Assembly: GCA_037349105.1 (NCBI GenBank) | Contig: JAYJMM010000100.1 | Span: 1,644,501 to 1,708,500, forward strand | Direction: 5' to 3' | Length of the DNA: 64,000 nucleotides | From: Limnomonas spitsbergensis | Taxonomy: Eukaryota > Chlorophyta > Chlorophyceae > Chlamydomonadales | In this document: positions 241-58,184 of the stretch, piece after piece | How positions within the stretch are numbered: position 1 is the first letter of the stretch | How the letters are laid out: each line of letters begins with the position of its first letter | Position numbers and translations under genes: made by a program | Notes under the pieces: generated by a model | Database searches by the model: none | Told to the model about the DNA's origin: nothing | What the model saw: the letters and a program-made list of their open reading frames with translations, nothing else

Positions 241-3200
241 AACCTGATGCTGGCGTCCGGCAGCCTGCCCACACCCACGCTAGGCCTCCCCGGAGGAGCA
301 TCAGTGCTGACAGCAGTCCCCGAGGGAGACACAAGCTCTTGCGGGGGACAGAACAGCGGAGACGGACACACGCAAGGAGAGGCAGCGGCGGCCGCCGCCG
401 CGTGCCCGGTGCATCGCGACTCCTCCTCCTCGGTGCTGCAAGCCTCAGCGTCGTTCTCCGCGTTGCCCATCGGCCCGGCGGCGGCGGCGGCCGCCGCCGC
501 GTACGTGGCGGTGTCTGCCCCGGACCAGCTGCCGTTACCTTCCATGAAGTACGTGTCACCGAGGCGCTCGGCTGACGACGGAGAGAGACCGCGGTATGTC
601 CAGCCGAACGCCCTGTGCTTGAACACGCTGCCTGCCTTTCCATATTTTGTCTCCATGTCCATTCTCATGTCCCTTGCACGAGCCGTAGTGTGCTAGGCGT
701 ATGGTATGTTTATCCAATCCGAGAGTCACGCCTACAGCTACTGCCTGTCCTTTCCAAAACCTGTATCCGTATCAAACATATGTTCATATCCATACATCTG
801 CATACCCATGTTCATTCACATGCTCACACCCATGTTCACACCCATGCTCACACCCTTGTTCATACCCATGCCCATATCCAGTGACAACTCGATTTTTGTC
901 ATGGGTTTTTCTGACTGCATACCATCAATGCATGTCGCCTAATAGCCTAATTGCCTACCCAGCGCTACGGCCGAATGGGTGGCTTCCTGATCCCATGCTT
1001 CAGGGCGTGTTTTTGATTTATTTTCACACAGTATGAACAGGAAAGCAGCTCAACACACACGCGCACAATTTCGAGGAAACTGCTGCCAGTCCTGGGACTT
1101 TTGATACCGGTGGTTTTAAATGAAAGTACCGTATCTGGTTGAGTTGCCAGTAGACCGTGCGAGGGAAAGGAAGCCTCCACTCCTTGGGCATATCAAATGC
1201 TATGTGGCTGGCCCTGCACCTCAATTCCTCCTAAACCCTCAGCCATAACTCTTTACCCCAAATCCCAAACCCTAAGTCCTATACCCTTAAAATGCCTGTT
1301 TCTCAACCCATCCTCTTCACAGTTCCCGCTGCCATTCCCTTTCCATACATACGTGAAACCCACAATCAAATGCGCCCTCCCCCGCCCCGCTCCCTCCCCC
1401 GTTTTTTATGTGCTAGGCCCACACCGCTCGATGCTGGCGGTCCAGCAGCCAAATCCTCCGGCGCCGCGGGCGCTGCCGCCGCGGGTGTCGCAGCCTGTAC
1501 CGCCGCCGCCGCCGCCGCCACGGCGCGGGCGTCCTCCTCCTCCTCGTCCTCCCCGCCTCTGGCCGGCGACATAAAGTTCCACTCCCCGCGGGCGCCACAG
1601 CGGAGCTCCACGGACCTCTCGACGCCGGAGGCCGCGGCGGCAGCGGTCGCTGCGCCGCTGTCGTCGAGCCTGCGTGTCCCGGTCTGCCCAACGGGCCCGT
1701 TTGCAGGGGTCCCGGTCAAGCCCATGTCGACAGAACTCAAGGAGACGATCAAGCAGGACTTGTCGCGCGGCATCCGGTCGGAGCTGCAGAAGTAGGACGC
1801 AGGCGCGGGTGCAGTTTAGGGTAGAGAGCTCAGGGATGAGGGTTGAGGGTTGACCCCCAAGACAAGGCCTTCATTATAATACCCTTTCCCTCAATCCCTG
1901 CACCTGGGATTTGAACCCTGAACCAAGAACCATAGACCATGAACCATGAACCCTGAACCATGCACCTTGAACCCTCAGCCCTGAATTCTTAACCACATCC
2001 AGGAGCATGTGATTTTTTACGTATCCTGGGTTAGGCCACGTTGGCTGCTGCTCCGGTTGTGGCCCCTTCACTCCCCTCCCCCCTTTTGATTACGAGCAGG
2101 AGCATGAGGCCCCTCATGTCATCAGCTGCAGTGGCGTTGGCTGCTGCGGCTGCTGCGGCCGCCACGCCAGGGATGTCCCCCACCACACGAGTCTCGGGGC
2201 CTTGCCTGCAGGGATCCCCAGTGGCTAAGGACACAACTATCAGGTGACAGAAGGGGGGGGGGAGTGGGCAGGATGGCATTGGGGGGCAGGGAGAGGCTGT
2301 GCCCCATGACATGTGGGGCAGAATAAGGTGGGTGGGTGGGTGGGTTCGAAAACCAACCTGTGAAAATCCATTGTCCTGAATGTGGCCTCTTTCAACGCTG
2401 TGCTGTTCAGAGTCAGCGCGATATCCGGGCGGATCAAGCCCATCAACATCGTGATGCTGGTGAGGCAGGACAGTGTCAGTGGGAGGGGGGGAGTGCGCGC
2501 ACCAGCAGGCTGGTGAGGATGGACAGTGTGGGTGGGAGGGGGGGTGAGAGGGAAGGGGGGGAGTGCGCGCACCAGCAGGCTGGTGAAGATGGGCAGTGTT
2601 TGACACTGTGTTTGTGTTTATGTGTGTGTGGGGGGGGGGGGCGAGCACCAGCAGGCTGGATGCCTGTGAAGCACCCTGACAGTTTAGTTTCAATCAGACA
2701 ATTCATTTTTTACGAACCAGGCAGTTTGTTTTTGAACGCACGCTGAAGTTTGTTTTTGAACGCACGCTGAAGTTTGTTTTTGAACGCACGCTGAAGTTTG
2801 TTTTTGAACGCACGCTGAAGTTTGTTTTTGAACGCACGCTGAAGTTTGTTTTTGAAGGCACGCTGAAGTTTGTTTTTGAAGGCATGCTGAAGCTTGTTTT
2901 GAACGCACGCTGAAGTATGCCTTTGAACGCACGCTGAAGTATGCCTTTGAACGCACGCTGAAGCTTGTTTTGAACGCACGCTGAAGTATGCCTTTGAACG
3001 CACGCTGAAGCTTGTTTTGAACGCACGCTGAAGTATGCCTTTGAACGCACGCTGAAGCTTGTTTTGAACGCACGCTGAAGTATGCCTTTGAACGCACGCT
3101 GAAGCTTGTTTTGAACGCACGCTGAAGTATGCCTTTGAACGCACGCTGAAGCTTGTTTTGAACGCACGCTGAAGTATGCCTTTGAACGCACGCTGAAGTA

Positions 3201-6200
3201 TGCCTTTGAACGCACGCTGAAGCTTGTTTTGAACGCACGCTGAAGTATGCCTTTGAACGCACCAGATTTTTTTCTGAACGCAGCACGCAGCTTTCTACCA
3301 GCATTCAATTTATTAACTGCCACCGCACCCTCTTTCAGATTGTGGGTACCCGAGGGGATGTGCAACCCTTCATCGGCATCGGGCTGAAGCTCAAGGAGTA
3401 TGGCCACAGGGTCAGAATTGCCAGCCACAAGGTAAGACAGGACGGCCTAGGGGTTGGAGGGGAAAGCACTAAGTACTAAAACTTCAGCATAAACCGCACC
3501 CTACATCCTTAACCCTATGTAGGCTATGTAAGAGGCATAGGATCAGGGTTTGAAGGGCCTATGGTCAAAATTGGTAGCCAAAAGGTAAGGTGGGAGGGCC
3601 TAGGGGGTGGAGAGTGGGTGAAGAAGGTTCAGGATGTAAGGACTTGATAGATATTTTTTGGGTGTTGCAAAGTGTGCAGTATACCAGTACGTTGTTGTTA
3701 ACAGTGCTGAGGACAGTATTGCAGAAGGTATTGCAGAAGGTGTTACGCCGACATATGCGGCAGCCTGACGAACAAGTCTGCGTCGTCAAGGGATTTGTTG
3801 CAGGCGTCGGCACCTAACAGAGCTTTGGAGGGGCTTGCTGTTGCTTATGATGTTACTATTGCTGCCAAGGAAGTTGTACTGTCTTGCACTGCCTGTCGGT
3901 GTACCGCACGTGTGTTGCCAATCGTGTAGCAAGGCTCTGTACTGCATGCTCGTGAACAGCAATTAAGCAACGGAACTCCAGCGTCAGTCCTAACCATTTC
4001 AGGGAGACGTAAAGATGGTACCTGTACTGCCATACGTTGCACATAACTATCTTTTGTATTGCTGCGCTTGCAAAGTCTTTGGCAAAAAATATTGATTGTA
4101 CCGCAGGTGTACCGCGAGTTTGTGACGGGCTTCGGGCTCGAGTTCTATCCCATTGGAGGGGATCCCAAGGTGCTGTCCGAGTTTGTCGTGAAGCACAGGT
4201 GGGAAGCAGTACATGCGGTACATGCAGTGGTCATCAAGTAGGCAGTACATGCATTACACATGATGGTGCATTGGCAGGGACCCTAGCGTTCTGTCCGAGT
4301 TTGTCAAGCACAGATGCAACTATTTCTCGTGCTCTGCATTCAACTCCAGAACAAAAATACAATTGAGACCTCTGGTCATGACTCGTGAGAACTCCCATCA
4401 CGCCTGAACCCTCAACCCTTGTGCTCTTAACCCTAAGCGCCTGAACCCTAAACCTGTCTTGCATGTTCACCCTGACCCCCTGAACCCTCGACCCCTCAAC
4501 TCGTGACCCAAACCCCTCTATACTGATAACCCTTACCCCTCTAAACCCTGACTCCCCGCCTCACCCCTCTAAACCCTGACCCCCCGTCTTACCCTTCTAA
4601 ACCCTAACCCCCAGCTGCCCCCTGCTATTTTCAGGGGTATCATGCCGGGCCTCAACATCGCCGATGCCTTGCAGCAGCGAGACCAGGTCAAGGAGATATT
4701 GTACAGCAGCTGGGGCGCGTGTGTACTGCCGGATCCAGAAAATCCAGGTGTGTATTGCCTGACCCAGAAAAATTGGTGTGTAATGACGTGCATCAGCGGG
4801 ATTTGGCCAAAGACCTTATGTACAGCAGCTGGGGTATGAGTGTACTGCCGGATCCAGAAAATCCAGAAGTGCACCACCGGATCCAGGCAAGTCAGGTATG
4901 TACTGCCATGCGGCAGCGGAACCAGGTCAAGGATATTATGTAAAGTCGCTGGGGCGCGTGTGTACTGCCGGATCCAGAAAATGTATGTGTGTGCTGCCAT
5001 TCAGCAGCGAGATCAGGTGATGGAGATACTATGCGGCAGCTGGGGGAGCCCACCCACCAGCTTCCTGCCACTCCCTTCACACCTTTCAAAATGCCTGCAG
5101 GGAAATCGTTAATTGCCGACGCCATTATGGCTAACCCGCCTGCATACGGTCAAACCCTTTCACACCCTTCACACTGTCTATTGGAAGACCCTTCATTGGC
5201 GACACCATCGAGACCAACACGCCTGCATACGGTAACACTATTCACACCTTCCACACCTTTCACACCCTTCACACTGCCCGCAGGAAAACCCTTCATTGGC
5301 GACACCATCGAGACCAACACGCCTGCATACGGTCACACCTTTCACACCTTTCACACCCTTCACACTGCCCGCAAGGAAACCCTTCATTGCCGACACCATC
5401 GAGACCAACACGCCTGCATACGGTCACACCGTTCACATCATTCACACCTTTCACACCCTTCACACTGTCCGCAGGAAAACCCTTCATTGCCGATGCCATC
5501 GTGGCCAACCCGCCCGCATACGGCCACACACACTGCGCCGAGAAGCTTAATGTGCCGCTCCACATCATCTTCACCATGCCGTGGTCACCGACAAAGGTGG
5601 GTAGATGGGAGATTTGGGAGAGCGGTTTGACTGTTCATGGTTTTGTCTTTGCCCTATTCGTGGCCGCGCGCTGCGCTGAGAAGCTGGATGTGACGCCCCA
5701 CATCGTCGTCACCATGCCGTGGTCGCTGGCAATGGTGAGGAGATGGGCAATATTGAGGTTTTAAGTTGCAGGTTGGCTCCTCAGGGTTTGGGGCTGGGTT
5801 TGGGAGTTCCTCTCTCCATGGGGTTACGCTTTCCATGGTCACACACTGCACTGAGACGGTCGATTTGCGGCTCCGTATCACCTTCACCATTGCCGTGGTG
5901 TCCCCGACATTGGTTTTTTACTGAGCGACTGCTCACGACTAGAATACCAAAAAACTGTTTTGTCATTGTGTTTCGGTACAAGTCCCAGAAGGTACCTCCT
6001 GAAAAGCATGAGTGGCCAGGGCCAAATGCCAGCGGCCCATGTGATCCTGGTAGAAAGAAAGAAAGCTACGCCCCGTGGGGGGCGTGAGAGTTAAGGAAAC
6101 AGCGCAGCCTGGGGAAGAAACACTTATCCTGGTATGTCCTGGTATGACTGCGCAGGCCTTCCCCAACCCTTTTGCGCGCATCAAGACCACGATCGGCGGG

Positions 6201-9200
6201 CAGAACAGCAAGGCGCGGGAGGTGAGAGGGGGAGGGAGAGAGGGGTGAGAGGGAGAGGGAAGTTGGGGTGGGGTGGGGGTGAGAGGGTGAGGGAGGGGGG
6301 GCAAGGGAGGGGGAGGGAAGGAGGCTAGGAGAGGGAGAGGGCGTGGCGGTTTCACTCAATTTGGTTTCCCCTTAGTAGGTAGAGAGTGGTTTTGAGGGAG
6401 GGGGGTCAGACGGAGGGGGGTGCACAATGTACATCAAGTGTGTGTGTGGGGGGGGGGGGGGGGCAACAGGGGGGGGGGGATGTCCCCACTGCAGGGAGGT
6501 GAGAATGAACATGTCAGGAAAAGACGGCAACCCTACATCTATGAGACCCCGAACCCTCAACACTGAACACTAAAAGTTTACAGGAGGGGGGGAACTGCAG
6601 AGCACGGATGGACCGCATGATGACGTCAAGTCGGCAAGCCAACCAGAAGGACCTGCATTTGAATTTAGTTAATTGCTGCACCGCGTCCATGCACTGATGT
6701 TTCCCGCTGATGTGTACTACCTGTGTGTACTGCCCACGTTTGTGTGCCTCCTGCATGTCATGGACTGCAATGTTCCTGTTCTATTGAGGTCCTTGCCTGG
6801 CTAGGCACGTCTGGGATGCTCAAATGCCCTCGTTGATATGTACTGCATTTGTGTGCCGCCCATGTGTGGACTGCCTGCAGATCATGAACTGGCTGAGCTA
6901 CTTTGCGGTAGAGGATCTGGCATGGCTGGGCATGTCGGGGATGGTGAAGGACTTTCGAAAACGGATACTACAGCTCACTGACTGGAGCAAGGAGAACGGC
7001 TCGCACACAATACACCACTCAAAGGTGAGGAACCTGGATATAGATCTAGATCTTGGTGGGAAACAGACCCTGCAGATCATGGACAGGAGACCCGAGACTG
7101 GTTCTCACGTGATACCCCCCCCAAAAGTGAGGAACCTGGATCTTGATCTAGGCCTTGGTGGGAAACGGATGCTGCAGCTAACCGACTGGGGCAAAGCGAA
7201 CAGCTCCCAAACGATACACCACTCAAAGATGAGGAACCTGGATCTAGATGCAGAAATATAGATCTAGATCTTAGTGGACTATGGATCCTGCATATCTCTT
7301 ATTGGAGCAAGGACAGTGGTCCGCACATGATTAGCTATGTTAAGGTGAGGAGCTTGGATCTTGATCTAGATATTGGTGGGTCACGGATCCTACAGATCTT
7401 TGATTGGGACTAGGGGAGTCCACTGATCATCCACCCGCACCAATCACTGTCTCCATCATGTGTAAATTCCCTTCACCTCTCACTGCCCCCGTCCACCACC
7501 ATTCACTGCCCCCATCACCTCCATTCACTGCCATCTAGTCACACAGTGACCTCTCACCACCACTCACTGTTCTCTGACCACTCACTACCACTGCCCACCA
7601 CCACCCACTGACATCTGGCCACCCACTGCCCCACTCACCACCATTCACTGCCCCCATCATGTGCAACGCCCCCTCACCTCCCACTGTTACCGCCAACCAT
7701 CACTCACATGGCTCTCACCACCACTCACTGTTCTCTGACCACTCACTGCTCCCACCCACCACCACGCACTGGTTACTCACCAGTCACCACTCCCTGTCCC
7801 GCCCACCACCATTCACTGGTCTCTCACCACTCACTGCCCCCCACCCACCACCACGCACTGATCTATTACCACTCACTGTCTCGTCCTCCACCACTCACTG
7901 GTCTCTCACCACTCACTGCCCCCACTCACCACCACCCACTGGTATCTCACCACGCACGGTTCCGTCCACCACCACTCACTGGTCTCCCACCACTCACTGT
8001 CCCGTCCACCACCACTCACTGGTCTCTCACCACTTCTCACCACTCACTTCCTCCACCCACCACCACTCACTGGTCTCTCACCACTTCCCACCACTCACTG
8101 CCCCCTCCCACCACCATTCACTGCCTACATCAGGTGCCTGTCACATACATCTGGTCTCCATCCCTGGTGGAGCGGCCGCCAGACTGGCCACACTACTGCG
8201 AGGTGTGTGTGGGGGGGGGGGGGCAGAGTGCTGGAAAACCCCCAATATATGCATGAATTGAAAATCTGGATGTGGAGCGGCCACCAGACTGGCCACACTA
8301 CTGCGAGGTATGGGGGGGCCAGTGTGCTGGGACAAGCCCGAATAAATGCATGAATTAAAAATCTGGATGTGGAGGGAACACCAGGCTGACCATGCCTCTG
8401 CGATGTAGGCATGTGCAGGGACGCCTCAAATGAATAAATAGGATTAAGATCTGGGCATGGAGCTGCCACCAGATTGGTCAAATCACCGCAAGGTGTGGGG
8501 GGGGATGCAGTGCGTGGGGAAACACCAGCATAAATTAAGTAAATGATTTATTAATAAACTGGATGTGGAGCAATCACCAGTTTGGCCGTGCTGGTGGGCA
8601 CAAACCTAAATCGATTTGTATGTCAAGAATCTGGACGTGGTGCAGCCACTAGACTGTCCACACTTGTACGAGATGTGTGGGGGGCGCAGAGTGCAGGGAC
8701 ACCCCCAAATAGTAATATATCTAAAAATCTGGACGTGGAGGGGCCACAAGACTGTCCACGCTTATGTGAGGTGTGGGGGGCGCAGGGTGCGGGGGGCACG
8801 TCTAATTTATATAAATGAATGGTTTACCAAAAAAAATGACGGCAGGTGGTCGGCTGTGTGATCACAGAGATCCAGATTGGCACTTGTGATAATTACATGA
8901 CACCCATTGTCCCCACACTTGTGATAATTACATGACACCCATTATCCCCACACTTGTGATAATTACATGACACCCATTGTCCCCACACTTGTGATAATTA
9001 CATGACACCCATTGTCCCCACACTTGTGATAATTACATGACACCCATTATCCCCACACTTGTGATAATTACATGACACCCATTGTCCCCACACTTGTGAT
9101 AATTACATGACACCCATTGTCCCCACACTTGTGATAATTACATGACACCCATTGTCCCCACACTTGTGATAATTACATGACACCCATTATCCCCACACTT

Positions 9201-10715
9201 GTGATAATTACATGACACCCATTGTCCCCACACTTGTGATAATTACATGACACCCATTGTCCCCACACTTGTGATAATTACATGACACCCATTGTCCCCA
9301 CACTTGTGATAATTACATGACACCCATTGTCCCCACACTTGTGATAATTACATGACACCCATTGTCCCCACACTTTTTCATATTTAACTCTTTGCTGGAA
9401 TACGCATTGTTGGATAATAGAGTCCAATACCGAGTCCAATGCAATCATTCGTTTTGTTTGTTTTCGACAGGTTGTTGGCTTTGTGAACGTGGAGCTACAG
9501 AAGCTCACCAATTACACGCCACCCAAGGATCTGCAGGACTTTCTGGATGCAGGTGTGGTAAATGGTGTGAGCAAGAGTGTGGAGGTGTAGAACCCACTCA
9601 TTTCCCCCCACACAATGTCGATTTTTGGAGGGTGACCGAGTCTAGACGCTCCCAGGGTGTAAAGAAGAGTGTGGCCGTTTGAGCAATATTTGTGTGGAGG
9701 AGAGTGTGGCGGTGTGACATGCCTGCCCCGCTCCAAACCCCTCTACCTCTCCGTAATCATCCACATCCTCCCCCCCTTCTACGCCTGCCCCGCCCCACAT
9801 CCACCCCAAACCCCGCTCGTTGGCAGGCCCCCCCCCTGTGTACATCGGTTTTGGAAGCCTTGTGGTGGACGATCCCGTCAAGCTGACACAAGATTTCCTA
9901 GAGGTGAAATTATGAGAGGGGAGATGGGGGAAGGGGAGGGGGGGGGGGGGAGAGGGAGGAGGGAAGATGGGGTGAGGGGGGGGGGAGGGGGAGAGGGAGG
10001 GGGAGATGGGGGATACAAGGGTTGAGGGGCAGGGGAGGGAGGGGGGAGGATCCTGTTCAGCTGACACAAAAATTACTTGAGGTGAGGTTGTGATAAGGGG
10101 AGGATGTGTGGAGGGTGGAGGAGGGGTAGACAAGGGTGCAGGTGAGGGTGGAGGAGGGGTAGACAAGGGTGCAGGTGAGGGTGGAGGAGGGGTAGACTAG
10201 GGTGAGGGTGGAGGAGGGGTAGACTAGGGTTGAGGGTGGAGGAGGGGTAGACAAGGGTGCAGGTGAGGGTGGAGGAGGGGTAGACTAGGGTGGAGGGTGG
10301 AGGAGGGGTAGACTAGGGTGAGGGTGGAGGAGGGGTACTAGGGTGGAGGGTGGAGGAGGGGTAGACAAGGGTGCAGGTGAGGGTGGAGGAGGGTTAGACT
10401 AGGGTGAGGGTGGAGGAGGGGTAGACTAGGGTGAGGGTGGAGGAGGGGTAGACTAGGGTGGAGGGTGGAGGAGGGGTAGACTAGGGTGAGGGTGGAGGAG
10501 GGGTAGACTAGGGTGGAGGGTGGAGGAGGGTTAGACTAGGTTGACGGTGGAGGAGGGTTAGACTAGGGTGAGGGTGGAGGAGGGGTAGACTAGGGTTGAG
10601 GGGTGACTGTGAGGGTGGATGATCCCGTCATTCTGATGCAAGATTTCCTTTAGGTGAGATTATGAGGAGGGGGGGAGGGGAGGGGAAGGGAAGGGAAGGG
10701 AAGGAAGGTGTAGAT

Positions 10716-10774
<59 letters not shown>

Positions 10775-13700
10775 ATAACAGGTGGGGGGATCCCGTTCAG
10801 CTGACGCAAGATTTCCGTAAGGTGAGGTTGTGAGGTTGAGGGGGGAAATGGAAGAGGGAGTTGAGAGGAGAATATCCCTGTCAAGCTGAGGCAACATTTC
10901 AAAGAGGTGAGGTTGTGAGAGGGTGAGGGTGGGGGGTGAGACAAGGGAGGGAAAAGGAGGAGGGAGAGGGGGGGATAAGGGGGGGAGGTCCCTGTCAAGC
11001 TGACGCAAAATTTTACAGAGGTGAGGTTTGGGGAGGTTGATGGTGGGGATAGTGAGGGGAGGGGGGGTGAAGGAGGAGGGGGAGGGAAGACAACTCGTAT
11101 AAATTGGCGCTAGATTCCTTGAGATAAGGGCGACAGACAGACAGACAACTAATCCCCTAAACCTCAAACCACAAACCTCGAATCACAAGCGTCAAACCTC
11201 AAACCTGCACTCTACCTGATACCTGCACTCGACCTGATTCCTGCACTCGACCTAAACCCTGAGCCCTGATCCACGTTGTCAGGCTGTCGCATGATTTCCT
11301 AGAGGTAAGGGCGGCAGGTACGCGCCAGAAATGACCGCGCTGTGAGCATCCTGGATGTGGAGAGTAGATCTAGGATTTTGAGAAAGATCTCAAGATCTGA
11401 AGCTGGAATGCTGCAGGCGATCTACGGACTGCGACCGTGCTGAAGTTTTGAAGGCCCCAGCTCTAAAGACCTGAAGATCCAAACCCTATTTATTGTTTTG
11501 GATTTTTGAAATTGTTGAACCTGATCTGTTGCTCTTTGTGTTTTTGAAACCCTACCTGTTACAGGCGATCAAAGTGACAGGTCTGCGAGCGATCATACAG
11601 AAGGGATGGGGTGGCCTCGGAGCCGGAATCACCGGCACCATCGAGGGCGTTCTTTTCTTGGGGCAGGTGCGTCACACTCAATGGGAGTGGACACAGTGTG
11701 AAACAGTTTGAAATTCGTGGGGGGCAGTACATGGACAGGGGCAGTACATGGACAGGGGCAGTACATGGACAGGGGCAGTGCATGGACAGGGGCAGTACAT
11801 GGACAGGGGCAGTACATGGACAGGGGCAGTACATGGACAGGGGCAGTGCATGGACAGGGGCAGTACATGGACAGGGGCAGTACATGGACAGGGGCAGTGC
11901 ATGGACAGGGGCAGTACATGGACAGGGGCAGTACATGGACAGGGGCAGTGCATGGACAGGGGCAGTACATGGACAGGGGCAGTACATGGGCAGGGGCAGT
12001 ACATGGACAGGGGCAGTGCATGGACAGGGGCAGTACATGGGCAGGGGCAGTACATGGACAGGGACAGTGCATGGACAGGGGCAGTACATGGACAGGGGCA
12101 GTACATGGACAGGGGCAGTGCATGGACAGGGGCAGTACATGGACAGGGGCAGTACATGGACAGGGGCAGTGCATGGACAGGGGCAGTGCATGGACAGGGG
12201 CAGTACATGGACAGGGGCAGTACATGGACAGGGGCAGTGCATGGACAGGGGCAGTGCATGGACAGGGGCAGTGCATGGACAGGGGCAGTACATGGACAGG
12301 GGCAGTACATGGACAGGGGCAGTACATGGACAGGGGCATGCTCGGGTCTGCATTCACCGACAGCATGGAGGGCGTGCTCTCTACTAGTTGGGAAGTTGCG
12401 CCACGTGCAATGAGAGTGAGCAAAACAGCAAATTATTACTCCACAACATAATCGGCGAGGAGTAATAATGAATCGGGGAGGTTTCAGAGCCAGCAACTCT
12501 GGGATCATTGAGGGCTTTTTTTCAAAGAGCTGGTGTATTACACACAAACAGTGTGATGATATCAGGTGGAGAATAAATCATGTTTTGTATTCGTGTTTAA
12601 ATAACTTGCGACCTTCCTTTTCTGCATGTAAAACAAGCCGTTTCAAATCAAATCCACATTTCCAAATGAAATGGCAGGCCCCGCACGACTGGCTGTTTGA
12701 AAAGTGCTGCGCGGTTGTACACCACGGAGGAGCGGGGACCACGGCCTGCGGGCTGTACTGCGGTAAGTGTGTGGGATCGTTGTACTGCCTTGGGTGGGGA
12801 GATGGGGAGGACAGCTTGTTCTGTGGTGTATTGGTGGTTCGGCTGCGCCTTGTAGGCAAGCACAATGTCGGCATGCCCTAAAAAAAGCCTCTTGTAGGCA
12901 AGCACACCTCTAGCATGTTCTGAAATATTCCCCTTGTAGGCAAACCCACATTTGGCATGCCTTGAAGTAACTCCCTTGTGGGCAAGCTCACACACGGCAT
13001 GCCCCGGAATAATTACTTGTAGGCAAACCCACCTTTGGCATGCCCTAAATATTCCCCTCGCAGGCAAGCCCACGTTCATCGTGCCTTTCTTTGGCGATCA
13101 GCCCTTCTGGGGAGCGGCCTGCCACCGCGCCGGTGTCGGGCCTGCCCCGGTCGCCATCGACGACCTAAACGCAGACCGCATCGTGGACGCGCTCAAGACC
13201 CTCATCATGCCAAAGTGGGTTCAGGTTTTGTGTGCAGGGTCTCATGCCAAAGAAGGTTTAATGGTACGGGTCCGTGCCAAAAAAGGGTTCAGGGTCCGTT
13301 CCCAAGAGGCATGAGGGTTTATGAAACGTGTTCAAAAGGGCTTAGGGCTTAGGGTCTCAGCCGAAGAGGGTTTAATGTTCAGAGAAGCACCAAGGTGGAC
13401 CACCTGCTTGCACCGTGCGGGTTTGAAGCCCCAAGCCCTTAAAACTGTTCCTGTTTTTGTTCCCTAAACCCTAAACCCTCATCCTGCCTAAACCCTAAAC
13501 CCTCATCCTGTCGTAGGAGCCTGAGCAGCGCCAAGGTGATCCAGGCGCGCATGAAGATGGAGAATGGCATCGAGGCGGCGGTGGACCACCTCCACCGCAC
13601 CATTTACGGGGCGCTGCTGGCCGGGAAGACCTTTACTTGGATGAAGCAGGTGGGCCTGCCTCTGCACGCGCCATTTGTCTGTTTCGTTTCCTTTTGAGTA

Positions 13701-17954: not shown

Positions 17955-18320
17955 AAACTCTCCTCCGGTGTGAGTGGCCCAAGCATACGTGCTTGTGCCA
18001 TCTCACCGTTTGGCACGAATCGTGAGAGGAGGAACGCAGCAGCCTTCTGCTGCCCTGTAGCTTTTTTTTTCAAGACTCTCCTCCGGCGGGATAAGCCCGC
18101 ATGTGCGCGCGTGCTTCTTGGCTGTTTGGTGGGGTGGGCGATGTGAGGAGCAGGGTGACCAGCTGTGTTGGCATGGTGTGTTGAAAACTCTCCTCGGGCG
18201 GGATAGGCCAGCATGTGCGCTCGTGCCTGTTCGCTGTTTGGCGGGTAGGGCGAGGGGAGTAACGTGGCAGCAGGCTTCTGCCCTCTTGCCCATTTGTTGC
18301 CAACTCTCTTCCACCCGCAT
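17955..18320 (+). repeat. copies of the terminal-exon/3'-UTR segment
   Basis: GAAAACTCTCCTCCGG and GCATACGTGCTTGTGCC around the stop codon are repeated at ~18070 (AAGACTCTCCTCCGGCGGGA) and ~18183 (GAAAACTCTCCTCGGGCGGG), each followed by GCATGTGCGC and GCTGTTTGG sequence: three units of ~115-120 bp. Confidence 0.8.
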
Positions 18321-18691
18321 GCGCGCGCGTGCTTCTTAGTCGCGCTAGTGCGTGCATAGTTTAGGATTCAGGGACGACATCAGTGTTGGTAATCTCAGGG
18401 CAGGCTTGGCGGCCCGTACCGCAGCCGCGTTGGGCTGTGGGCTGTGCCCGGCTCTTTTACACTTCTGATCCAGTGATTATTTTAAGGCGTGGTATACCAA
18501 AGAATCTTCACCGCCAGGCCCCCTGCTCTTGTACCGTCACTTACCGCCACCATTCGTGTTACCCTTTTCCCGTTCCTGCCGTGATTTTTTTCCCATTATC
18601 ACACTTTCCCGGTGTCACTCTTTCCATGGTGGCATCACATTTCATGTGGTCAAACGGTGCATTCCTACCATCATCTTAATTGGTGGGTGTG

Positions 18692-18727
<36 letters not shown>

Positions 18728-24908: not shown

Positions 24909-24926
24909 GTTGCAAGGGGGAGGCAC

Positions 24927-25027
24927 CTGTGAAACACGTACGGCGAAACGAAATGGAAATCGGTCCCCCGAGTTGGCGCGTGATCAGGTGCGGCCGACCT
25001 CAAATGTTAGCTTGTGGGGATGGTTAC
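24927..25027 (-). other. probable 5'-UTR intron of RPS7
   Basis: On the - strand a GTAACC donor follows TTCTGCAG at 25028, and a TTTCACAG acceptor ends at 24927, 18 nt before the ATG at 24908. The leader upstream (25028-25075) is pyrimidine-rich. Leader introns are common in ribosomal protein genes. The splice sites are inferred, not shown by transcripts. Confidence 0.55.
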
Positions 25028-29010: not shown

Positions 29011-29108
29011 GGGTCAAACCAAGCCCAATCACTCAAACATAGGGCCTTAAAACACTGCAACCAGACAAATGAATGATTCAAGCACCCTGGGACCTGCCTC
29101 CCAAATTT

Positions 29109-45000: not shown

Positions 45001-48000
45001 GTTGGCTAGGATTGGGTGACAGGCGGTTAACAGTTGGTTAGGATTGGGTGACAGGCGGTTAACAGTTGGTTAGGATTGGGTGACAGGCTGTTAACAGTTG
45101 GTTAGGATTGGGTGACAGGTGGTTAACAGTTGGCTAGGATTGAGTGACAGGCGGTTAGCAGTTGGTTAGGATTGGGTGACAGGCGGTTAACAGTTGGCTA
45201 GGATTGGGTGACAGGCGGTTAACAGTTGGTTAGGATTGGGTGACAGGCGGTTAACAGTTGGCTAGGATTGGGTGACAGGCGGGTAACAGTTGGTTAGGAT
45301 TGGGTGATAGGCGGGTAAAAGTTGGTTAGGATTGGGTGACACCGTGAAAGGTGGGTAACAGTCGGGCCATCCTGACTATTTGTAGGGATAGGGTTAAGGC
45401 TCATGATCAGCTGAGCGAGCGCACACCTCCGGCGGGCCACCGCAGCTGCCGCTCGATCCGAGCGGGTGGTCGTCGTCACCGATCGATCCGGATGTCCAAT
45501 GGACTTGTCGCCGCCGTGCTGACTGCCTCCATTGGACTTATCACCTGCAGGGTTAGCAGGGTTTATCGGAGCCAATTTGATTTTAGCCCTGAAACATGGA
45601 CCCTGAAACTTAGAGGCAGGTTCCACAGTAGCATTGTGGTGGTGAGTGTACTGTAGATTTTTGCTTTGCCTTCCCTCATAATTAACATTGTTGGGGGTTG
45701 TTGAGGGATCCTTGAATTTACTGATGATCGATTGTCGACGCCAGTTTCCAGTCAGAAATTAAGAGTTTTGGTCGATTATATGCTATGCAATGCGGGCAGC
45801 ATTGAAACAAATCGTTTTTTTTCATATCCGAGTGAAGGCAAATCAAATCTACTGTATACAGTTGCCTCCTCAAATGTGTGGAAGATGTCTGGGATGGAGA
45901 TTTTACAGAATGGAAGATGTACAGGGTGGAGGATGTGCAGGATGGAGGATGTACATTATGGAAGATGTACACAATGGAGGATGTACATGATGGACGATGT
46001 ACATGCCGAAAAATGTACCGACCGGAAGATGTACATATCAAAAGCTGTACAGGATGGAAGATGTGAAGGACGGAGGATGTACAGGATTGAGGATGATTAA
46101 GTGTGCACCAGCTTTCATACATTTCTGCGTCGTCAACACATCCACACTTCAGTCAACCAAAAGCACAAACATAAGGCTTACAACAACCATACATTCAAGC
46201 CATGATGATCGCGCTCGCACCTGCATTGGACTTGTCGTCAGCAGCGCTGCCGTAGGCACACACCTCCACCTCGCCCTCGATCACGATGTGCAGCTCGGTC
46301 AAGATATCGCCCTCGTGGATCAGCTCCACCTGTACCCATAGGGGGGATGATAGGGGTTTAGGGTTCATGTATGAGGGTCAAGGGATGAGGGTTCAGGGAT
46401 GAGGGATGAAGGTAGAGGGATGAGGGTTATAGGATGGGGGTTCAGGTCAAGGATGAGGGTTGGGGTTTCAGGGAATAGGGACGAGGGTTGAACGTGGATT
46501 CAAAGGAATGGAAGTGGATTGTGAAATGAGCTTCCTGCTCAGGCAAATATCTCCCTTGCATCAGCTCCACTTATTCTTCGTGTGGGAGAGGTAGAGATAC
46601 GAAATCAGGGTTTAGGGGCACGGGATCCATGTCTTTAGATGAGCATAAGTGCGCATACAAACAGAGAGAGAGGGAGGGAGATAAGTGCGCACCAGGAAAA
46701 CAAACATGGCTGAGTGAGACATTCACATGCCCCAACCCTGCTCCACGATGCTCACTGCCAGCGTGTCTCCCCTCCCCCCCTTCACACATCGCTTTCTCCC
46801 CCCCCCTACACACCCCCACACTTACCCACCCGCTCTGCCCTGCCGTTTCCCCAGCTGTTCACACCCAGCATGCCCTTACCCGCCCCTGACCGCATCCTTA
46901 CACCCCTCGACGACTTACATGCCGCATGCCTCCAACTCAAATTCTGATCCAACACATATGCGTGACATGCCGACACCTCCGCTGCTCCTTACATTCGGCA
47001 CGCCCCCAACTCACATTTGGCATGAACATATCTGCGCGGCAAGCCGCCATGATTGCGTCGAGGAATTTGGGCTTGCAGGACTTGAAGAGGTAGCAGTGCT
47101 TCAGTGAGTCGAGGTAGAGGTGCCTGGGAGATTCAAAATCGAATTTGTTTGACGTATTCCGGGTGCATTGCTCAGGTATGACAAGGTAGCGTGCAGGACT
47201 TGTAGAGGTAGCAGTGCTTGAGTGAGTCGAGGTAGAGGTGCCTGGGAAATTCAAAATCCAAATTTCGACGTATTTTGGATGCATTGTTCATGTATGACTT
47301 AGGAGAGCGTGCAGGACTTGTAGAGGTAGCAGTGCTGGAGGATGTCGAGGTAGAGATGCCTAGAAAGTCATAACAAACTCAATCCAGCGTAATTTATGTT
47401 GTTCTCTGTTCAAGAATAGGGCCAACAGGGCTTGCAGAGGTGGCAGTGCCGGAGGGTGTTGAGGTCAAGATGCCTGGAAATTCAGAACAAACTCAATCCA
47501 GCGTATCTTTTGCTCTCTGATCTGGAATAGGGCCAACAGGACTTGCAGAGGTAGCAGTGCTGGAAGGAGTCATGAAGTCGATATAGACTTATAGGCGCCT
47601 GGAAAAGTGTGTATATGTGGGTTTGGGGTGCAGGCTCGCTGGTAGAGGTGCCTGGACATGCAAGCATGCAACATATTGTGTGCCTGGTGTGCAGGAATGA
47701 AGGCCTGCAGGCCTGGAACAGGTAGCACTGCTCGATTGGTTCAAGGGTAAGATTGGTTCAAGGTTAAGGGCGCTAAAAGCACCTCTACCGTCTGGGACCT
47801 AAATTGGGTGAAAACCGCCCTGCCTACACCTATGGTGCCTTGAATCGAATTTCATATGGTGCGGTAAGGGCAGTTTTCACCCCTCGCACACAATTTGGGT
47901 CCAAAGTTTTTTCCTTTAAGAGGCAGAAGAAGATGACCAAAATTGCGCTCTTAGAGGTAGAGGTGCCTATAAAATGAGCATATGGTTCAGATTTCAGAAA

Positions 48001-51000
48001 GGGTCCTGCCAAAATGTTAAGGGTTTAGGCCAGACATAATTTACCCCTAAGAACAGGAAGAACGTGGAAAGGTAGCGGTGATCGAGGAAATCTAAGGTTG
48101 AATATCTCCCCCTCGCCCCTGCCCCCCTACCTCAATTCATACCCTACTGGCAAGCGTTGAGAGATACATATTTATCCTCCTCAATCCTAACCTAGATATT
48201 GAACCCCACGCCCCATGCAATCAACTCCTCATGCCCCCCTCCGATCGCATCCTCTTGGCGCACAGCTTTAAAAGTGGCATGGACACAAAAGCCTGAACCT
48301 GCCTCACTTGAGTACCCTGCCTCACCTGAACCTGCCTCACCTGAGTACCCTGCCTCACTTGAACCTGCCTCACCTAAGTACCCTGCCTCACCTGAGTACC
48401 CAGCCTGTCAGGGCTGAGGGATAGATACTGAGCACAAAGCCTGAAGCTGCCTCACCTAAGCACCCTGCTTGTCAGGGCTGAAGGATAGATGCTGAGCACA
48501 AAGCCTGAAGCTGCCTCACCTAAGCACCCTGCTTGTCAGGGCTGAAGGATAGATGCTGAGCACAAAGCCTGAAGCTGCCTCACCTAAGCACCCTGCTTGT
48601 CAGGGCTGAAGGATAGATGCTGAGCACAAAGCCCGAAGCTGCCTCACCTAAGCACCCTGCTTGTCAGGGCTGAAGGATAGATGCTGAGCACAAAGCCTGA
48701 AGCTGCCTCACCTAAGCACCCTGCTTGTCAGGGCTGAAGGATAGATGCTGAGCACAAAGCCTGAAGCTGCCTCACCTAAGCACCCTGCTTGTCAGGGCTG
48801 AAGGATAGATGCTGAGCACAAAGCCTGAAGCTGCCTCACCTAAGCACCCTGCTTGTCAGGGCTGAAGGATGGATGCTGAGCACAAAGCCTGAAGCTGCCT
48901 CACCTGAGCACCCTGCTTGTCAGGGCTGAAGGATAGATGCTGAGCACAAAGCCTGAAGCTGCCTCACCTGAGCACCCTGCTTGTCAGGGCTGAAGGATAG
49001 ATACTGAGCACAAAGCCTGAAGCTGCCTCACCTAAGCACCCTGCTTGTCAGGGCTGAAAGATAGATGCTGAGCACAAAGCCTGAAGCTGCCTCACCTAAG
49101 CACCCTGCTTGTCAGGGCTGAAGGATAGATGCTGAGCACAAAGCCTGAAGCTGCCTCACCTAAGCACCCTGCTTGTCAGGGCTCAAGGATAGATGCTGAG
49201 CACAAAGCCTGAAGCTGCCTCACCTAAGCACCCTGCTTGTCAGGGCTGAAGGATAGATACTGAGCACAAAGCCTGAAGCTGCCTCACCTGAGCACCCTGC
49301 TTGTCAGGGCTGAAGGATAGATGCTGAGCGCAAACCCTGAAGCTGCCTCACCTAAGCACCCTGCTTGTCAGGGCTGAAGGATAGATACTGAGCACAAAGC
49401 CTGAAGCTGCCTCACCTAAGCACCCTGCTTGTCAGGGCTGAAGGATAGATGCTGAGGACCTTATCCACATCCGCATTGTCGTTGGAGAATTGGAGGTCCA
49501 GGTGCTGCCTCATGTCAGTCTCCAGTTCCTGCAGTGTGCGTAGGGGGGGGGGGTCTTTTATCCAATGTGCAGGGCTTCGATCTACGTCACCGGTGTTAGC
49601 TCGGGATGCTGCCACTTTGGTCCAGTGTTCCTGCAGCATTGGTTTAGGGTCAAGGGTTTAGGGTTTGGTCCATGGTTATGCCGGGGAGAGGCAATCACCA
49701 ATCCAATTGACAGGGGGGGAGTCTCCAATCGAATAGACAGGGTGTCAATCTGCGTCACCGGTGTTAACTGGGGATGAGATGCTGCCGCTTTGGTCCAATG
49801 TTCCTGCAGCATGGGTTAAGGTTTCAGGGTTTACGGCTTGGTCCATGGTTCCTGCAGCATGGGTTAAGGTTTCAGGGTTTACGGCTTGGTCCATGGTTCC
49901 TGCAGCATGGGTTAAGGTTTCAGGGTTTACGGCTTGGTCCATGGTTCCTGCAGCATGCCAGGGAGAAACAATCAACAATGGAATGGGCAGGGCGTCAATC
50001 TGCATCGCAAGCAATCCTTTTGGATCAGATACGTACTCCTGTCGGTATATGGTCCCAGGTTTGTGAAGGAGGGAATCAAGCACCCTTCAAATTCGCAGGG
50101 CATCGATCAGTATCACAGACAACTACTCAAAATCGGATGCTGCCTCACGTCGGTGTCTGGCTCCTGAGGTGTAAAGGAGGGAATCAATAAGGGTTTGATG
50201 ACGTACCTTTCGTAGACATGCTATATTTGCATTTATTACTGAAGGCCCGCATTTGTAACTGGAGATCTGCATCGGAAACTGAAGATCTGAATCTATATTG
50301 GAAGGTTCGCATTCATAACTGAAGATCCGCATTCACAAGAGAGGCCCATGCCTCTGCTTCATGCCGGTCCCCAGATCCTTCAGAGGGCGGGAGAAAATCA
50401 ATCCACGGTGAAAGAAAATCAATCGTGCATGTCTTCTCACCCCCCCCCCCACACACACACACATTAGTCATGTCCAATGCTTTGGCCGACATATGTAGCT
50501 TCCGCAATCCACATCTCAGGACATATGCATGTATTTATTGATACATCTACCGGTATTGATTGATACATATTTATTTTTAGGGTTCGGCATATAATATTAT
50601 ATGCAAAATCATGTTACATTATATACCGTAAAGGGATCGGCCAACTTATACGTATACCAAGTTTTCACACTATACAATATCATACCACATCAATTCAACT
50701 TATTTTGAAATTAACGATACCTTATACAAGGTGCCGACAAAACTTATACAAGGTACCTCCGGCGTACCTCAATTTATTGATCCCTTCACCTGCCGAAGTA
50801 CCACATGCCTTGGGCAAGGTTATGCAGCCAGCTGCATTCTGAAAGCAAGGCGATCTGCTGATTGCACTTTGAATTTGAATGCCCCCCCACACACATATCT
50901 TCAATTCTCAACTCGAAAAAAAGTACCTTGGGCAGGTTATGCAGTCGGCTGTATTCGTACAGCAAGGCAATCTGCTCACGGAAAGCCTTGGACTTCTTGT

Positions 51001-54000
51001 CACTTTTCACCATAAGCATGGTGATGGTACCTTCAGGGGTTAAGGGTTGGGGGTTACAGATTACGGTTTAGGCTTGTTGTATATCTCAACCACAAACATG
51101 ACGATGGTACATTAAAGGGTTTAGGGTTGGGGTTTTGGGCTGAGGGTGTAGGGTTAGGTTTAAGGGCTGTTGTATCTCTTTACCGTAAGCATGCCCAGGA
51201 GTCAGGAACTAGTTAAGGCCTAGTAATGAAGGATATCGGGGCAAAACAGGGAAATGCTCGATCGTAACCCCCAACTCCTGTATGGGGCACAAAGGAGCTG
51301 GCACATTACAGACCTAACGACGGCAAGTAATTTCCTGCCAATGCTGAGTATACATTTCCTTCTTATTTCTTGGCATTCTTATACCATTAGCATGGTGATG
51401 GTACCTTATCTTAAAGGCCCTGTGTCACACCTCTGCCCTGACCGCCAAACACCGTACGCACGTGCCCCCAGCGGGCAAACAGGGGAACGGCTGTTCCTGC
51501 TGCACCCCACAAGCAACAACACCAATACCAAACCCCATTGATGCAATGCACAGACAGCACTACACCCACAAATGCAGTACAATGACAGCACTACACCCAC
51601 AAATACAGTACAAATACAGCACTACATCCACAAATACAGTAAAAATAAAACACTACACCCACCAGGGCAGCACACGGACAGCGCTGCACCGACCTAGGCA
51701 GTACACAGACAGCACTGCACCGACCTAGGCAGTACACAGGCAGCACTACACCCACCAAGGCAGTATGCAGACAGCACTACAAAGATCACAACAAAGACGA
51801 TGACGGCAAGCGACTCTGCAGGGCTTGCCGCGAAGAAATCTCCGTCCCCAAGACCGGTGTAAAGAGTGATGGCGTAATATAGTGAGTACATGTACCTGCA
51901 TAGGTGAAGGGTTCAGGGCGGATGGTTCATGTCTCCAGGTCAAGGCTAAGGTTGTATTGTATAGGTTTCATAGTTTAAGGCTTGGGGTTTAAGATGTAAG
52001 GAGTAGAAGAAAGGTTTCAGGCAAAGAGTTTCGGTCGTAATATGCTGAATTAAGGTTTACATGTATAGGGTGAAGGGTCCAGGGTGAGGGGTGAAGGGTG
52101 CAGGGGCTGGGACTCATAGTTAAGCCGGTGCAAATTACCCTATTCCCTTAACCCTTAACCTCTAAACCCTTAAACCATAAATTCGCAGCCCATAAACCCT
52201 GAGCCCATCCTGAATCCATAGACCCTGAGCCCATACCCCCCCTCCCCCTTTTGACCAGTTTGCCACACCAAGGCGGTCCCAGCGATTCACACATTTTCAG
52301 CATACAATCTTATCCCTTAACCACCCCCAATTTTCAATTTGACTTGCGTGCCACGCCAAGTGGGTATCAGCAGTTCACACACCTTCATCCTAAAATTTAA
52401 CACTTAAGACTGAACCCTCACCCTGACTGGACCACTTGGGCCCTATCGATCCTCCCACTTGTCTACACTTATGCAAAATGGAACATTTAACATGCGCCCT
52501 GCAGCACTGCGCAAAATCGAACCTACACCTACCACCCTTGCCACTCACCGCCTACAGATAGGCTGGTCATCGAAACGGTCCATTTGTTGCCAGCCACGTA
52601 CCACCCCACTTGGGCCCCAGGGGCTTCTCATGCGCTTCATGCATTTTACAAAATCAAACCTGAACCCTGCACCCGTTAGTCCAAAGTCTTCCACAATTTG
52701 GCAGAATGGAACCTATACCCTTAACCCTTACTCCCCGTGGGCCACTCACAGCACATGTAGGGGTTGGCCATCGAAGCGGTCCATTTTGTTGCCGATCCAC
52801 GTACCGACCCACTTGGGGCCCAGCGGGTTGTCATGCGCTTCACAACGAGCGATAAAGTAGAAGGTGCATCCGCAGAGGTGGCAGATAAGCAAGGCATACA
52901 TGATGTTACGCTGTGAAGAGACAGGAGGGGGGGGGTTAAGGTTAAGGGCTAAGAGGGTTCAGAGGTTGAAGGTCTATTGATTGGCATGCGCTGCGCCAAG
53001 GGGGGGTCGGGTGAGGTTATTTAGGGTGCAGGGCTCGAGGCTCAAAGAGTTCATGATTTGTTTCAAGGGCAAAAGATTGGCATGCATCTCGCAGCACGCA
53101 ACAAAGTAGAAAGTACATCCTCCCTAGTCTATATTCATAGTTCCAAGCCCCAGCTCAGTTAATGACGTTATACCTTTGGGCCCTGCTTAAATAAAGCTCA
53201 GCCATGTTGGGTTTAGGGCATAGGGCTCAGGATTCAGGGTGCATGGTATTCTGCCTGGTTGCACCATGATGACTTAGGGTTTAGGGTTTAGGGCGTAGGG
53301 CTCAGGATTCAGGGTGCGTGGTATTCTGCCTGGTTGCACCATGATGATTTAGGGTTTAGGGTTTAGGGCGTAGGGCACAGGATTCAGGGTGCGTGGTATT
53401 CCGCCTGGTCGCACCATGATGATTTAGGGTTTAGGGTTTAGGGCGTAGGGCTCAGGATTCAGGGTGCGTGGTATTCCGCCTGGTCGCACCATGATGGTCA
53501 GGGTGATCTGGCTGAAGATCATGGAAAAGTCGAGCTGACGGAACATCTCGAAAATATCATACAGCCTCCCTAGCTTCAGCATGCCGAGGATGCCGATGTA
53601 CAGCCCGACGTTGGAATCGTACAGCGACGGGTCAGCCGTGAGGATGATCGGCGCGAACGGGATCATGAAAATTAGGTCCCAGAAGAAAAAACCCCTGCAG
53701 CAGGGGCAGACGTGCGGTTAGTTGGACGGCAGGCAAGGATGACAAGCCTAGGTTGCACATTAGAGTTGGGTAAAGGAATGAGTCTGCTGTGAGGATGATC
53801 GGCGTGAACGGGATCGTGAATAAAAGGTCCCAAAAGGAAATATTCCTGCAGCAGGGGAGGGGGGGGGGGGCGGAGGGTTAATTGGAGGGCGGGCCAGGAT
53901 GCCTATAATCAACCTGATGTTGGAGTAGTACAGGGATGGTTCGGCGGACAGGGTGATCGGGGCAACCGGGATAGCGAAATGAGGTATAAGAAGGTTCCTG

Positions 54001-57000
54001 CAGCAGGGGAGGGGGGGGTATAAGGTTAATTGATGGGCAGGCCAGGATGCCTATGATCAGCCTGATGTAGGAGTGGTACAGGGATGGGTCGGCTGCCAGG
54101 ACTCACTTGAGGTAGTGCATCCGTATGGTAGCCAGGTCGATGATCTCGTTGCGGCTCTCAGGCGTCTCCTTGTAGGCCAAGAAGAACCTTATATGGCAAG
54201 GGAAAACAACAACAAAATGGTTGGCAAACTCGTATTTTAAAATAATTATTGATAGGCCAAGAAGAACCTGAAATGGTAAGGAAAAGAAACAACAAAAGGT
54301 TGGCAAGCTCCTATTTTAAAATAATTACTGATAGGCCAAGAAGAACCTGATATGGCAAGGAAAAGAAACAACAAAAGGTTAGCAAACTCATATTAAAAAA
54401 AATGATGATGGGCCAAGGAGAACCTGATATAGCAAGGAAAAGAAGCTACAAAATATTAACAAACTCGTATTTCAAAGTAATTATTAATACGAAAACGGGC
54501 AGGAAGATCAGGATGTGCATAAAACTTACAAATAAATGTGAAACAAGTAACAGGAGAAAATGAATGAGCACCAAGGGCGAGGGAAAGATTAATTCAAGAT
54601 CAATTCACCGTAAATTAAATAAATACAAATAAATAAATACCGTATGTGGCAATAAGTACATCAATGGGAAAACACGGGGCAGATCAGATCACATATACCA
54701 TACGGAAAGCCGAAACAGACACGTTGTAAAAACATGCAACACAACAATTTACTGTCTCACTTGATCGCGATGTCCACAGGTACAAAGAAAGAAAACTACG
54801 CCCGCAGGGATGTGAGGCTTCAGGAAGCAGTGCGGCATGGGCCGAGGCCGCGTCCGCACCGTTACCATCAAAACAAGAAAGCCATGCGATAAAAAAAAAA
54901 CCATGCAGTGCAAAGATCATGCAATAAAAAACATGCAATACAAATGTGCCGGTCTCACTTGATTGCGATGTCCACGGCAAACACCGCGGTACCGAACAAC
55001 TCGGTGATGGTCCAGAAGATCGTGGAGCTCCTGGGAGTGTGACGAGTAGAAGACGCGCAGAACAATTTCATATTTTTGCTCAAAAGTGCAAGGGCAGGGG
55101 TGAAGACGCGCGGTACACTTTGAAACTGTTTTTCACAAGTGTAAGGGCAGGGGTTGGAATTTCTTTTGATTCGAATCCAGCCACTTCACCAGCCAGGGTC
55201 CATCATTACTTCCATGATGTATGGATAACGGTGTAATTGCACAGCATTGGAAGGATGGCGTCCCCGAAGCAGCCCACCCCTTCAAAAAGTAGCGACCCCG
55301 TCAGCTGACAGTTCACACTTTGTGTCCACACACCGCCCATACCTCATTGGCAGCTGTCACGATCACAAGAGGCCTGGAAGCTCTGGAAGGCTGAAGCTTC
55401 ACTAGCACCGGTCTAGCATTCATCCCAGCGATTTTCACACTGAATTCATACCTTCCAAACTTAGCCAACAGCATTCACACTGACGAGACGTACTGGCGCT
55501 CAAGAGACTGCAGCTTCACTAGCACCAGCCAAAACTTCATACTAGAACTTCACACTTTCCACTCTCACACATTTCACACTTGTTTCCCAGCAGACACACT
55601 CATGAGAGGGTCTACTGTCTCGGTAAGGCCGTCGTCACAGGCTACATCCCAGAGTTCATCCCAGTGTTACACACACATTTCCTCACACCTTCCACACTTC
55701 AACGACAGAGTTCTCACTCACGAGAAAGTCTGCGCGCTCGTAAAGGCCGTCTTAACAGGCTCAAGCCCAGCGTTCATCAGCGCCACAAATACAGTCAGAG
55801 ACCAGAACCAGCGGTACCTAAGAAAGGGTCCAAATTGAAGGAGGGGGCTTGCAGTATTGTGTAATATGCCTCAGGTAGAGGCATGCCCCAAAATGTGGCG
55901 ACGTTCGAAACACGACAAATACTGTCAGGGAACCAAAACCACCTGTACCGAAGAGGAAGGGTCCAGGGTGAAGGAGGGACCTTGATTTGTTGTTTAGTAT
56001 GCCCCAGGAAGTGGCATGCCACAATATGTGGCATGTCCCAACTTGCGGCATACCCCATGTAGTTGCATTCAAGAAAAGAAATACGGTCAGGATCCAAGGT
56101 GGGGAAGGTAGGGTTTGGGCATCCCGGATCAGGTTTTAAGGTTTTGTTAAGCAGGATTTACTTACCGGCATACAAGTATTGATTTATTAATCAACCGGCG
56201 CAGCACCCACCACGTAGCGTCCGGGGAGACCACCGCAGGCATCCTCAGCCAGCGCCAGCCTGCTTTGCGGGTGTCGGCCTCGTCTGCCTCGGGGTCATTT
56301 AGCATCGCCTTAGTATGGGAGGGGTGAGGCGTAGGGACACATACAGCTGATGGCATTGCGGGGGGGGTGACAGACTGGGTCGTAAACAGGACGAGGGGCG
56401 GGGAACATGAGTTGGGTTTGGGGGGAGACGGGCAAGTGGCGGGGGACAGGGGGTGGAGGGGTGGGGGACGGGGAGACAGGGGGAGAGGGGGGTACAGGCG
56501 GACAGGACGAGTGGCAAGGGGGGGAAGACGGGGGGTGGGGGACGGGGGCAGGGCGAGTGGCCAGTGGCAGAGGGTGGGGGACAAGGGACAGGGCGAGCGG
56601 CGGGTCGGATGACGGGGGACAGGGGGACGGGGCCAGTGGCGGGGGTCAGGGCGGGACCTAGAACCTGAAAACGTCAGCTCTACATAACTAGAGTATTCAT
56701 CTCTGGACCTGAACACCCCACAAAAATAAAAACAATCTTGTCACTCCGGGATGTGAGTGTTAGGGAGACATTGCGGCATGAGGCCAAGGCCATATCCATT
56801 CCTTTATGGCCTCTCCTCCCCTCATCTTCCTTCTGGCAGCCTGCCTGTCCAGTTGGGTAGACTATCAGCTGTGCACTGAATACAGCAGGGATCACAGTCA
56901 TGGATTAATCCATCCTGCAGTCGCCTGCATTGGCTAGCCTGCATGGGTCCTTCCTGCATGGACCCATCGTACATGGTCTATCCTGCATGGCCTATCCTGC

Positions 57001-58184: not shown

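Follow-up and report, generated by a model that had tools for sequence, protein, structure and literature searches.

Tandem repeats that run across exon-intron boundaries have been reported in amphioxus, where such minisatellites are called 'mirages' and have been described in Adh, globin and PGBD5 genes (PMC3087553, PMC3902484). In the potato RdRp gene, a duplication over an intron-exon boundary is reported to have given a new intron (PMC4974935), and in Chlamydomonas reinhardtii and Volvox carteri the density of tandem repeats is reported to be highest in introns and to rise towards intron ends (PMC3887541). Here we examine introns of the green alga Limnomonas spitsbergensis, beginning with a stretch of 64,000 nucleotides (hereafter the window; G000:C100:1644501-1708500) from a 260-Mb assembly of 124 contigs. 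The window holds genes for a sterol glucosyltransferase (SGT), the ribosomal protein eS7 and an ankyrin channel. A preliminary description of the window had noted copies of exon edges in the neighbouring introns and could place them in no class that it could name; boundary-spanning tandem repeats had, however, already been named in amphioxus (PMC3087553, PMC3902484).

Copies of exon edges in the adjoining introns

Gene models were obtained by spliced alignment to homologues, using an in-house protein-to-genome aligner with GT/GC-AG introns; most of the alignment templates were predicted proteins. The internal boundaries of the SGT gene were identical with templates P0001 and P0002 up to 13214, the exon at 13517-13649 was placed with P0001 alone, and further exons, whose model is uncertain, lie on both sides. 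The best matches of the pieced-together SGT query were from Chlamydomonas euryale (70%) and Haematococcus lacustris (63%), and the spliced protein showed 83% identity to that of C. euryale (443 aa) with no indels at the 12 junctions. For the channel gene, which matched a Chlamydomonas eustigma channel (62% over about half of the query), we used boundaries concordant in at least two of three templates (P0121, P0126 and P0125); its model is uncertain in the 46221-43190 stretch and at the N- and C-terminal exons. The matches of the window genes point to a chlamydomonadalean green alga. The test set comprised 37 window introns after removal of terminal exons, the 46221-43190 stretch and introns with template-discordant boundaries. 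Single-template boundaries were retained for the eS7 gene, an acetyl-CoA-synthetase (ACS)-like gene and the acceptor at 13517, and SGT intron 1 was retained despite the uncertain start of its upstream exon. Together with two paralogues of the channel gene, a xanthine-dehydrogenase (XDH)-like gene and the ACS-like gene, the three window genes gave a full sample of 98 introns and 196 edges in seven genes. In the 87 introns that entered the comparison with homologous proteins, the median size was 109 bp for upstream exons and 789 bp for introns.

In the edge test, each splice site was represented by its 40 adjoining exon bases, which were compared with the adjacent intron and, as a control, with 200 segments of the same length from non-adjacent introns; multiple testing was allowed for only through the control edges. 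Copies of the adjoining exon edge that include the splice site (echoes) occurred far above chance and, as first described, at either end of exons and in genes of both orientations. At p≤0.01, 21 of 37 donor edges and 17 of 37 acceptor edges in the window were echoed (38 of 74 in all, with about 0.4 expected per set), and 27 of the 37 introns had at least one echoed edge, which bears out the earlier estimate of more than half of the introns, made for about 50 of them. The opposite ends of the tested exons, used as a wrong-end control, gave 2/37 and 1/37 (3/74), and reverse-strand matches with a score of at least 16 were found at none of the 74 window edges. The echoes were thus specific to the neighbouring exon edge and to the sense strand, and this restriction fits what local tandem duplication demands. 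No edge reached p≤0.01 in SGT introns 1, 6 and 9, eS7 introns 1 and 4, or channel introns 5, 13, 18, 20 and 21; shorter or weaker copies are present in SGT intron 6 and in channel introns 5, 13 and 18.

The pattern recurred in genes elsewhere in the assembly. The two channel paralogues (contigs C116 and C110) had echoes at 17 of 33 donors and 12 of 33 acceptors (29 of 66 edges, 22 of 33 introns) and none in the wrong-end control (0/66). Two more genes were picked by coding score in stretches at round-number positions: the XDH-like gene (C116), in which 11 of 21 introns and 12 of 42 edges were echoed, and a putatively ACS-like gene (C105), modelled with a single template, in which none of 7 introns and 14 edges was echoed. 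Pooled, these two genes gave 6/28 donors and 6/28 acceptors, with 1/56 at the wrong end. Over the whole sample, echoes were observed at p≤0.01 on 79 of 196 edges (44 of 98 donors, 35 of 98 acceptors), in 60 of 98 introns and in six of the seven genes. The echo rate differs by gene, and the window, which was chosen for its pattern, lies on the rich side.

Table 1. Modelled genes of the window and arrays of exon-edge copies in their introns (window positions).
Feature	Position	Strand	Details	Basis
Sterol 3-beta-glucosyltransferase (SGT) gene	3339..13649	+	13 of its exons (3339-3431 to 13517-13649)	spliced alignment to P0001, P0002
Donor-side copies of SGT exon 4635-4747	4827..4998	+	2 copies
Acceptor-side array of SGT exon 5475-5596	5077..5474	+	4 copies, AG kept in two
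Donor-side copies of SGT exon 5475-5596	5695..5914	+	2 copies
Donor-side copies of SGT exon 6881-7024	7094..7368	+	3 copies
Donor-side copies of SGT exon 8134-8202	8272..8798	+	5 copies
Donor-side copies of SGT exon 9827-9903	10042..11306	+	6 copies, G-rich arrays between	alignment
Ribosomal protein eS7 gene	21195..24902	-	5 exons	PDB sequence matches and one composite template
Acceptor-side copies of eS7 exon 22048-21956	22106..22253	-	2 copies
Acceptor-side copies of eS7 exon 23273-23103	23322..23487	-	3 copies
Cyclic-nucleotide-binding/ankyrin channel gene	33095..56239	-	about 22 modelled exons	P0121, P0126, P0125
Acceptor-side copies of channel exon 36928-36795	37014..37487	-	5 copies
Donor-side copies of channel exon 40798-40661	40089..40592	-	5 copies
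Donor-side copies of channel exon 43190-43074	42790..43030	-	4 copies of a 65-bp unit; p=0.03 in the exon-only test
Acceptor-side copies of channel exon 47123-47015	47204..47571	-	4 copies, units about 114-118 bp
Donor-side array of channel exon 49528-49416	48288..49391	-	18 copies, 64-bp unit
Donor-side copies of channel exon 53694-53490	53241..53430	-	3 copies, 75-bp unit
Acceptor-side copies of channel exon 54187-54107	54253..54441	-	3 copies, 79-bp unit

At SGT exon 9827-9903 the real donor is GTGAAA and several copies read GTGAGG, nearer the consensus, and at channel exon 40798-40661 the modelled donor is a GC (GCAAGT, in two of three templates) and one downstream copy has GTAAGT. In the 64-bp array of channel exon 49528-49416, 15 of 18 copies are at least 95% identical and all have GT. 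The units at channel exon 53694-53490 hold just 15 exon bases, and the exon-only test was not significant there (p=0.64). Two further features of the window's repeats were a run of 58 G inside an intron (10716-10773) and short CCCTAAA-like (telomere-like) motifs in interstitial minisatellites (13463-13510 and 34262-34938).

Position, spacing and relatedness of the copies

In total, 298 junction copies were found on 88 of the 196 edges (98 introns, seven genes). The first 70 introns, which served for the position profile, copy statistics and splice-site scores and exclude the XDH-like and ACS-like genes, held 258 copies on 70 of 140 edges; 26 of these 70 edges have a single copy, and the remainder have 2-41. 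The nearest copy lies a median of 116 bp off (68-199 bp from the 10th to the 90th percentile). Echo-bearing introns exceed the others in length (median 1050 vs 683 bp, p=0.001), and introns with edge copies are more repetitive in their interior than those without (0.47, n=50, vs 0.36, n=46; p=0.03), both comparisons covering 96 of the 98 introns, with short ones omitted. Donor and acceptor echoes showed no association within introns (Fisher p=0.48).

To obtain a profile of repetition, 30-bp windows were scored for repetition within their own intron against distance from the junction, in 36 of the 37 window introns and in 65 of 70 introns of the larger set (short introns omitted). The course was similar in both samples, and neither profile has a peak of repetitiveness at the junction. 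In the 65 introns, the donor-side values were 0.45-0.57 around the junction (the last 30 exon bases and first intron bases) and 0.40-0.60 at +15 to +300, and the acceptor-side values were 0.32 at the junction and 0.32-0.51 inside. Repetitiveness is thus roughly flat across the intron and dies out about 60-75 bp into the exon, the donor-side windows starting at -60, -75 and -90 scoring 0.21, 0.06 and 0.04. We read the echoes at exon edges as the shoulder of a whole-intron process, which ends where duplication would alter the protein.

Edge and interior levels were also compared with a simulation that has few parameters fitted on a coarse grid and ignores indels (interior level 0.32-0.49 vs 0.42 observed); decay was included, since divergence is slower between an exon and an intron copy than between two intron copies. 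The simulated ratio of edge to interior repetitiveness was 0.46-0.64 for uniform placement, 1.1-1.4 with 30% of duplications anchored at the junction and 1.7-2.4 with all anchored, and the observed ratio was 0.75 (donor 0.86, acceptor 0.64). Under this model, uniform placement comes nearest to the observed ratio, full anchoring is impossible, and a small anchored fraction or junction preference is possible. A simulation without decay (uniform about 0.45-0.65, anchored about 1.0-1.6) was superseded by this version.

The copies are related to one another as well as to the exon. In 36 arrays with at least three copies, identity averaged 0.772 between exon and copy, 0.796 between neighbouring copies and 0.775 between other pairs, whereas independent copying from the exon followed by decay would give an expected copy-copy identity of 0.60. 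Templating of each copy by the exon was therefore rejected (copy-copy identity 0.78-0.80). Neighbouring copies were more alike than non-neighbours (p=0.022), the difference between neighbour and exon-copy identity was not significant (p=0.20), and the relatedness from copy to copy is that of ordinary minisatellite turnover within arrays.

In introns, the share of windows strongly repeated within 400 bp was 0.51 for the SGT and channel genes and 0.25 for eS7, compared with 0.03-0.14 in five unmodelled stretches of the window (1-2400, 15200-17000, 17000-21190, 24903-29000 and 58300-64000). Four gene-side stretches were richer (13650-15200, 0.89; 29000-31000, 0.36; 31000-33090, 0.15; 56240-58300, 0.45); these could belong to terminal introns outside the gene models. 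The channel paralogues gave 0.63 and 0.75 in introns and 0.08, 0.36 and 0.12 in flanks, and ten further stretches ranged from 0.02 to 0.64. The contrast between introns and intergenic DNA, drawn from a few kilobases without annotation, is a lead. Giant tandem arrays, in which 98-100% of 30-bp windows are locally repeated, apparently lie in or beside the introns of the C110 paralogue (G000:C110:1906001-1956000, joined and reversed, local 1-7600 and 22051-33571). Outside the modelled genes, the window also has, side by side at 17901-18337, two stretches of roughly 210 bp that are repeated locally. An open reading frame segment is shared between 15714-16271 and 26687-27196, which probably represent a mobile element or a dispersed repeat.

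Tandem duplication as the probable explanation, and alternatives

The explanation that we consider probable, with good confidence, is minisatellite-like tandem duplication throughout introns, in units that at times reach over a splice site, which the cell tolerates. The preliminary description had set the pattern apart from random minisatellite birth, but the flat profile and the copy-copy relatedness make duplication of this kind the best reading. Introns would lengthen by frequent local tandem duplication, followed by minisatellite-type copying inside the arrays, and breakpoints placed fairly evenly along the intron would cause some units to straddle the splice junction. A straddling duplication would be harmless if the outermost donor (the first) or the outermost acceptor (the last) stayed in use: the protein would be unchanged, and the surplus exon edge would turn intronic and decay neutrally. 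Duplication itself would be mutational and unselected, and duplications wholly within exons would presumably be removed by selection. Such a selective filter alone would produce both the rule that the exon is outermost and the fade-out into the exon. Exon definition favours the splice sites closest to the exon; given short exons and long introns, it would be the natural reason for use of the outermost site.

Some observations do not follow from even duplication. The ratio of 0.75 exceeds that of the uniform model, which leaves room for a small junction preference. Random duplication acting evenly over the genome does not account for repeats that look much denser in introns than in most unmodelled DNA of the window, yet some gene flanks are rich as well. 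The negative trend with distance lies outside the simulation; the fall of similarity described earlier was recovered weakly, as a negative rank correlation at 24 of the 31 edges that had three or more copies, and the nearest copy exceeded the mean of the others at 27 of 44. We considered, as a tentative and rather unlikely reading, that strict outermost-site (exon-definition) splicing in this lineage, by turning every junction-crossing duplication into harmless length, makes such duplication a main, ratchet-like route of intron growth genome-wide, perhaps together with a modest mutational bias towards junctions and towards transcribed over intergenic DNA.

Much less probable is directional growth anchored at splice junctions, as originally proposed, in which a process linked to splicing or transcription would recopy the exon edge into the intron. 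The echoed edges in 60 of 98 introns, the tendency of similarity to drop with distance (24/31 edges) and an edge/interior ratio a little above the uniform model are in its favour, but there is no junction peak, the copies are too alike for repeated copying of the exon, full anchoring predicts 1.7-2.4 and not 0.75, and intron-only arrays also occur. This reading is largely refuted.

We judge it slightly less probable still that selection keeps the copies, be it as alternative exons or as regulatory decoys for splicing. Many copies do keep the splice dinucleotide (145 of 168 aligned donors, 68 of 82 aligned acceptors), the retention of donor GT being 0.86 compared with 0.75 for other dinucleotides among copies that are not independent, and between a quarter and a third of them reach the score of the real site (0.37 and 0.25 per edge). 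However, while real sites score 8.4 and 8.8, the site scores of the copies showed no significant difference from those of neutral decay (donors, 4.8 vs 4.15, 40 edges, p=0.22; acceptors, 4.49 vs 4.25, 28 edges, p=0.54), and the exon part of the copies is kept no better than the intron part (0.859 vs 0.896 and 0.867 vs 0.888). The splice sites of the copies thus decay at the neutral rate, and selection against decoy sites gave no sign. At the protein level, the 55 echo junctions gave no sign of alternative-exon use either: homologous proteins in five genes span all 55, with no extra residues here and one residue short in 2. At junctions without echoes, homologous proteins span 31 of 32, with indels in 3. 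This set covers 87 of the 98 introns (the 11 eS7 and ACS-like introns being out), with the 55 echo introns taken at a looser score cut-off, and the colinearity is partly built in, since the alignments that set the exon boundaries used these very homologues. The statement that the functional exon is always the outermost copy agrees with the homologous proteins at 55 of 55 junctions but is partly true by definition.

An assembly artefact has a negligible probability, for although long near-identical arrays can be miscounted (as with the 17 units of 64 bp at 48383-49456), many copies diverge by 10-30% from the exon and the pattern recurs on three contigs (C100, C116 and C110).

Comparison with known systems

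A narrow search of the open-licence literature, by title and start of abstract, returned no earlier report of boundary-spanning repeats in a green alga; as far as our searches show, what is new is the host group and the frequency of such repeats. The 88 edges and 298 copies, near-identical sites in a row at known distance and decay, are natural experiments in splice-site choice in which the outermost site of each row yields the conserved protein. They also make intron lengthening without transposons measurable, and they set a trap for gene prediction, decoy exon edges being common.

Among the known systems, high repeat density in introns is shared with C. reinhardtii and V. carteri, but the rise near intron ends reported there is absent from the profile of this alga, and units with exon sequence, present here, are not part of the published account of those two species as far as we could consult it (PMC3887541). 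As in the reported potato RdRp case (PMC4974935), duplication crosses the splice junction and supplies splice sites; in potato a new intron was made, whereas here an existing intron was lengthened.

The closest resemblance is to the mirages, which, as reported, share with the algal echoes tandem units that contain splice sites, a position at 5' as well as 3' boundaries of exons, and an AG or GT that is often kept. Regular splicing is reported to be unaffected by mirages (PMC3087553, PMC3902484). In the alga, homologous proteins appear to run colinearly across all 55 echo junctions compared. The host of mirages is a cephalochordate and the present one a green alga; mirages are reported gene by gene, whereas the echoes occur in 60 of 98 introns and six of seven genes; and length polymorphism is reported for mirages, whereas the alga is represented here by one assembly. 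In structure, the algal echoes correspond to the definition of mirages, with boundary units on 88 of 196 edges, at both boundary types, and turnover within the arrays.
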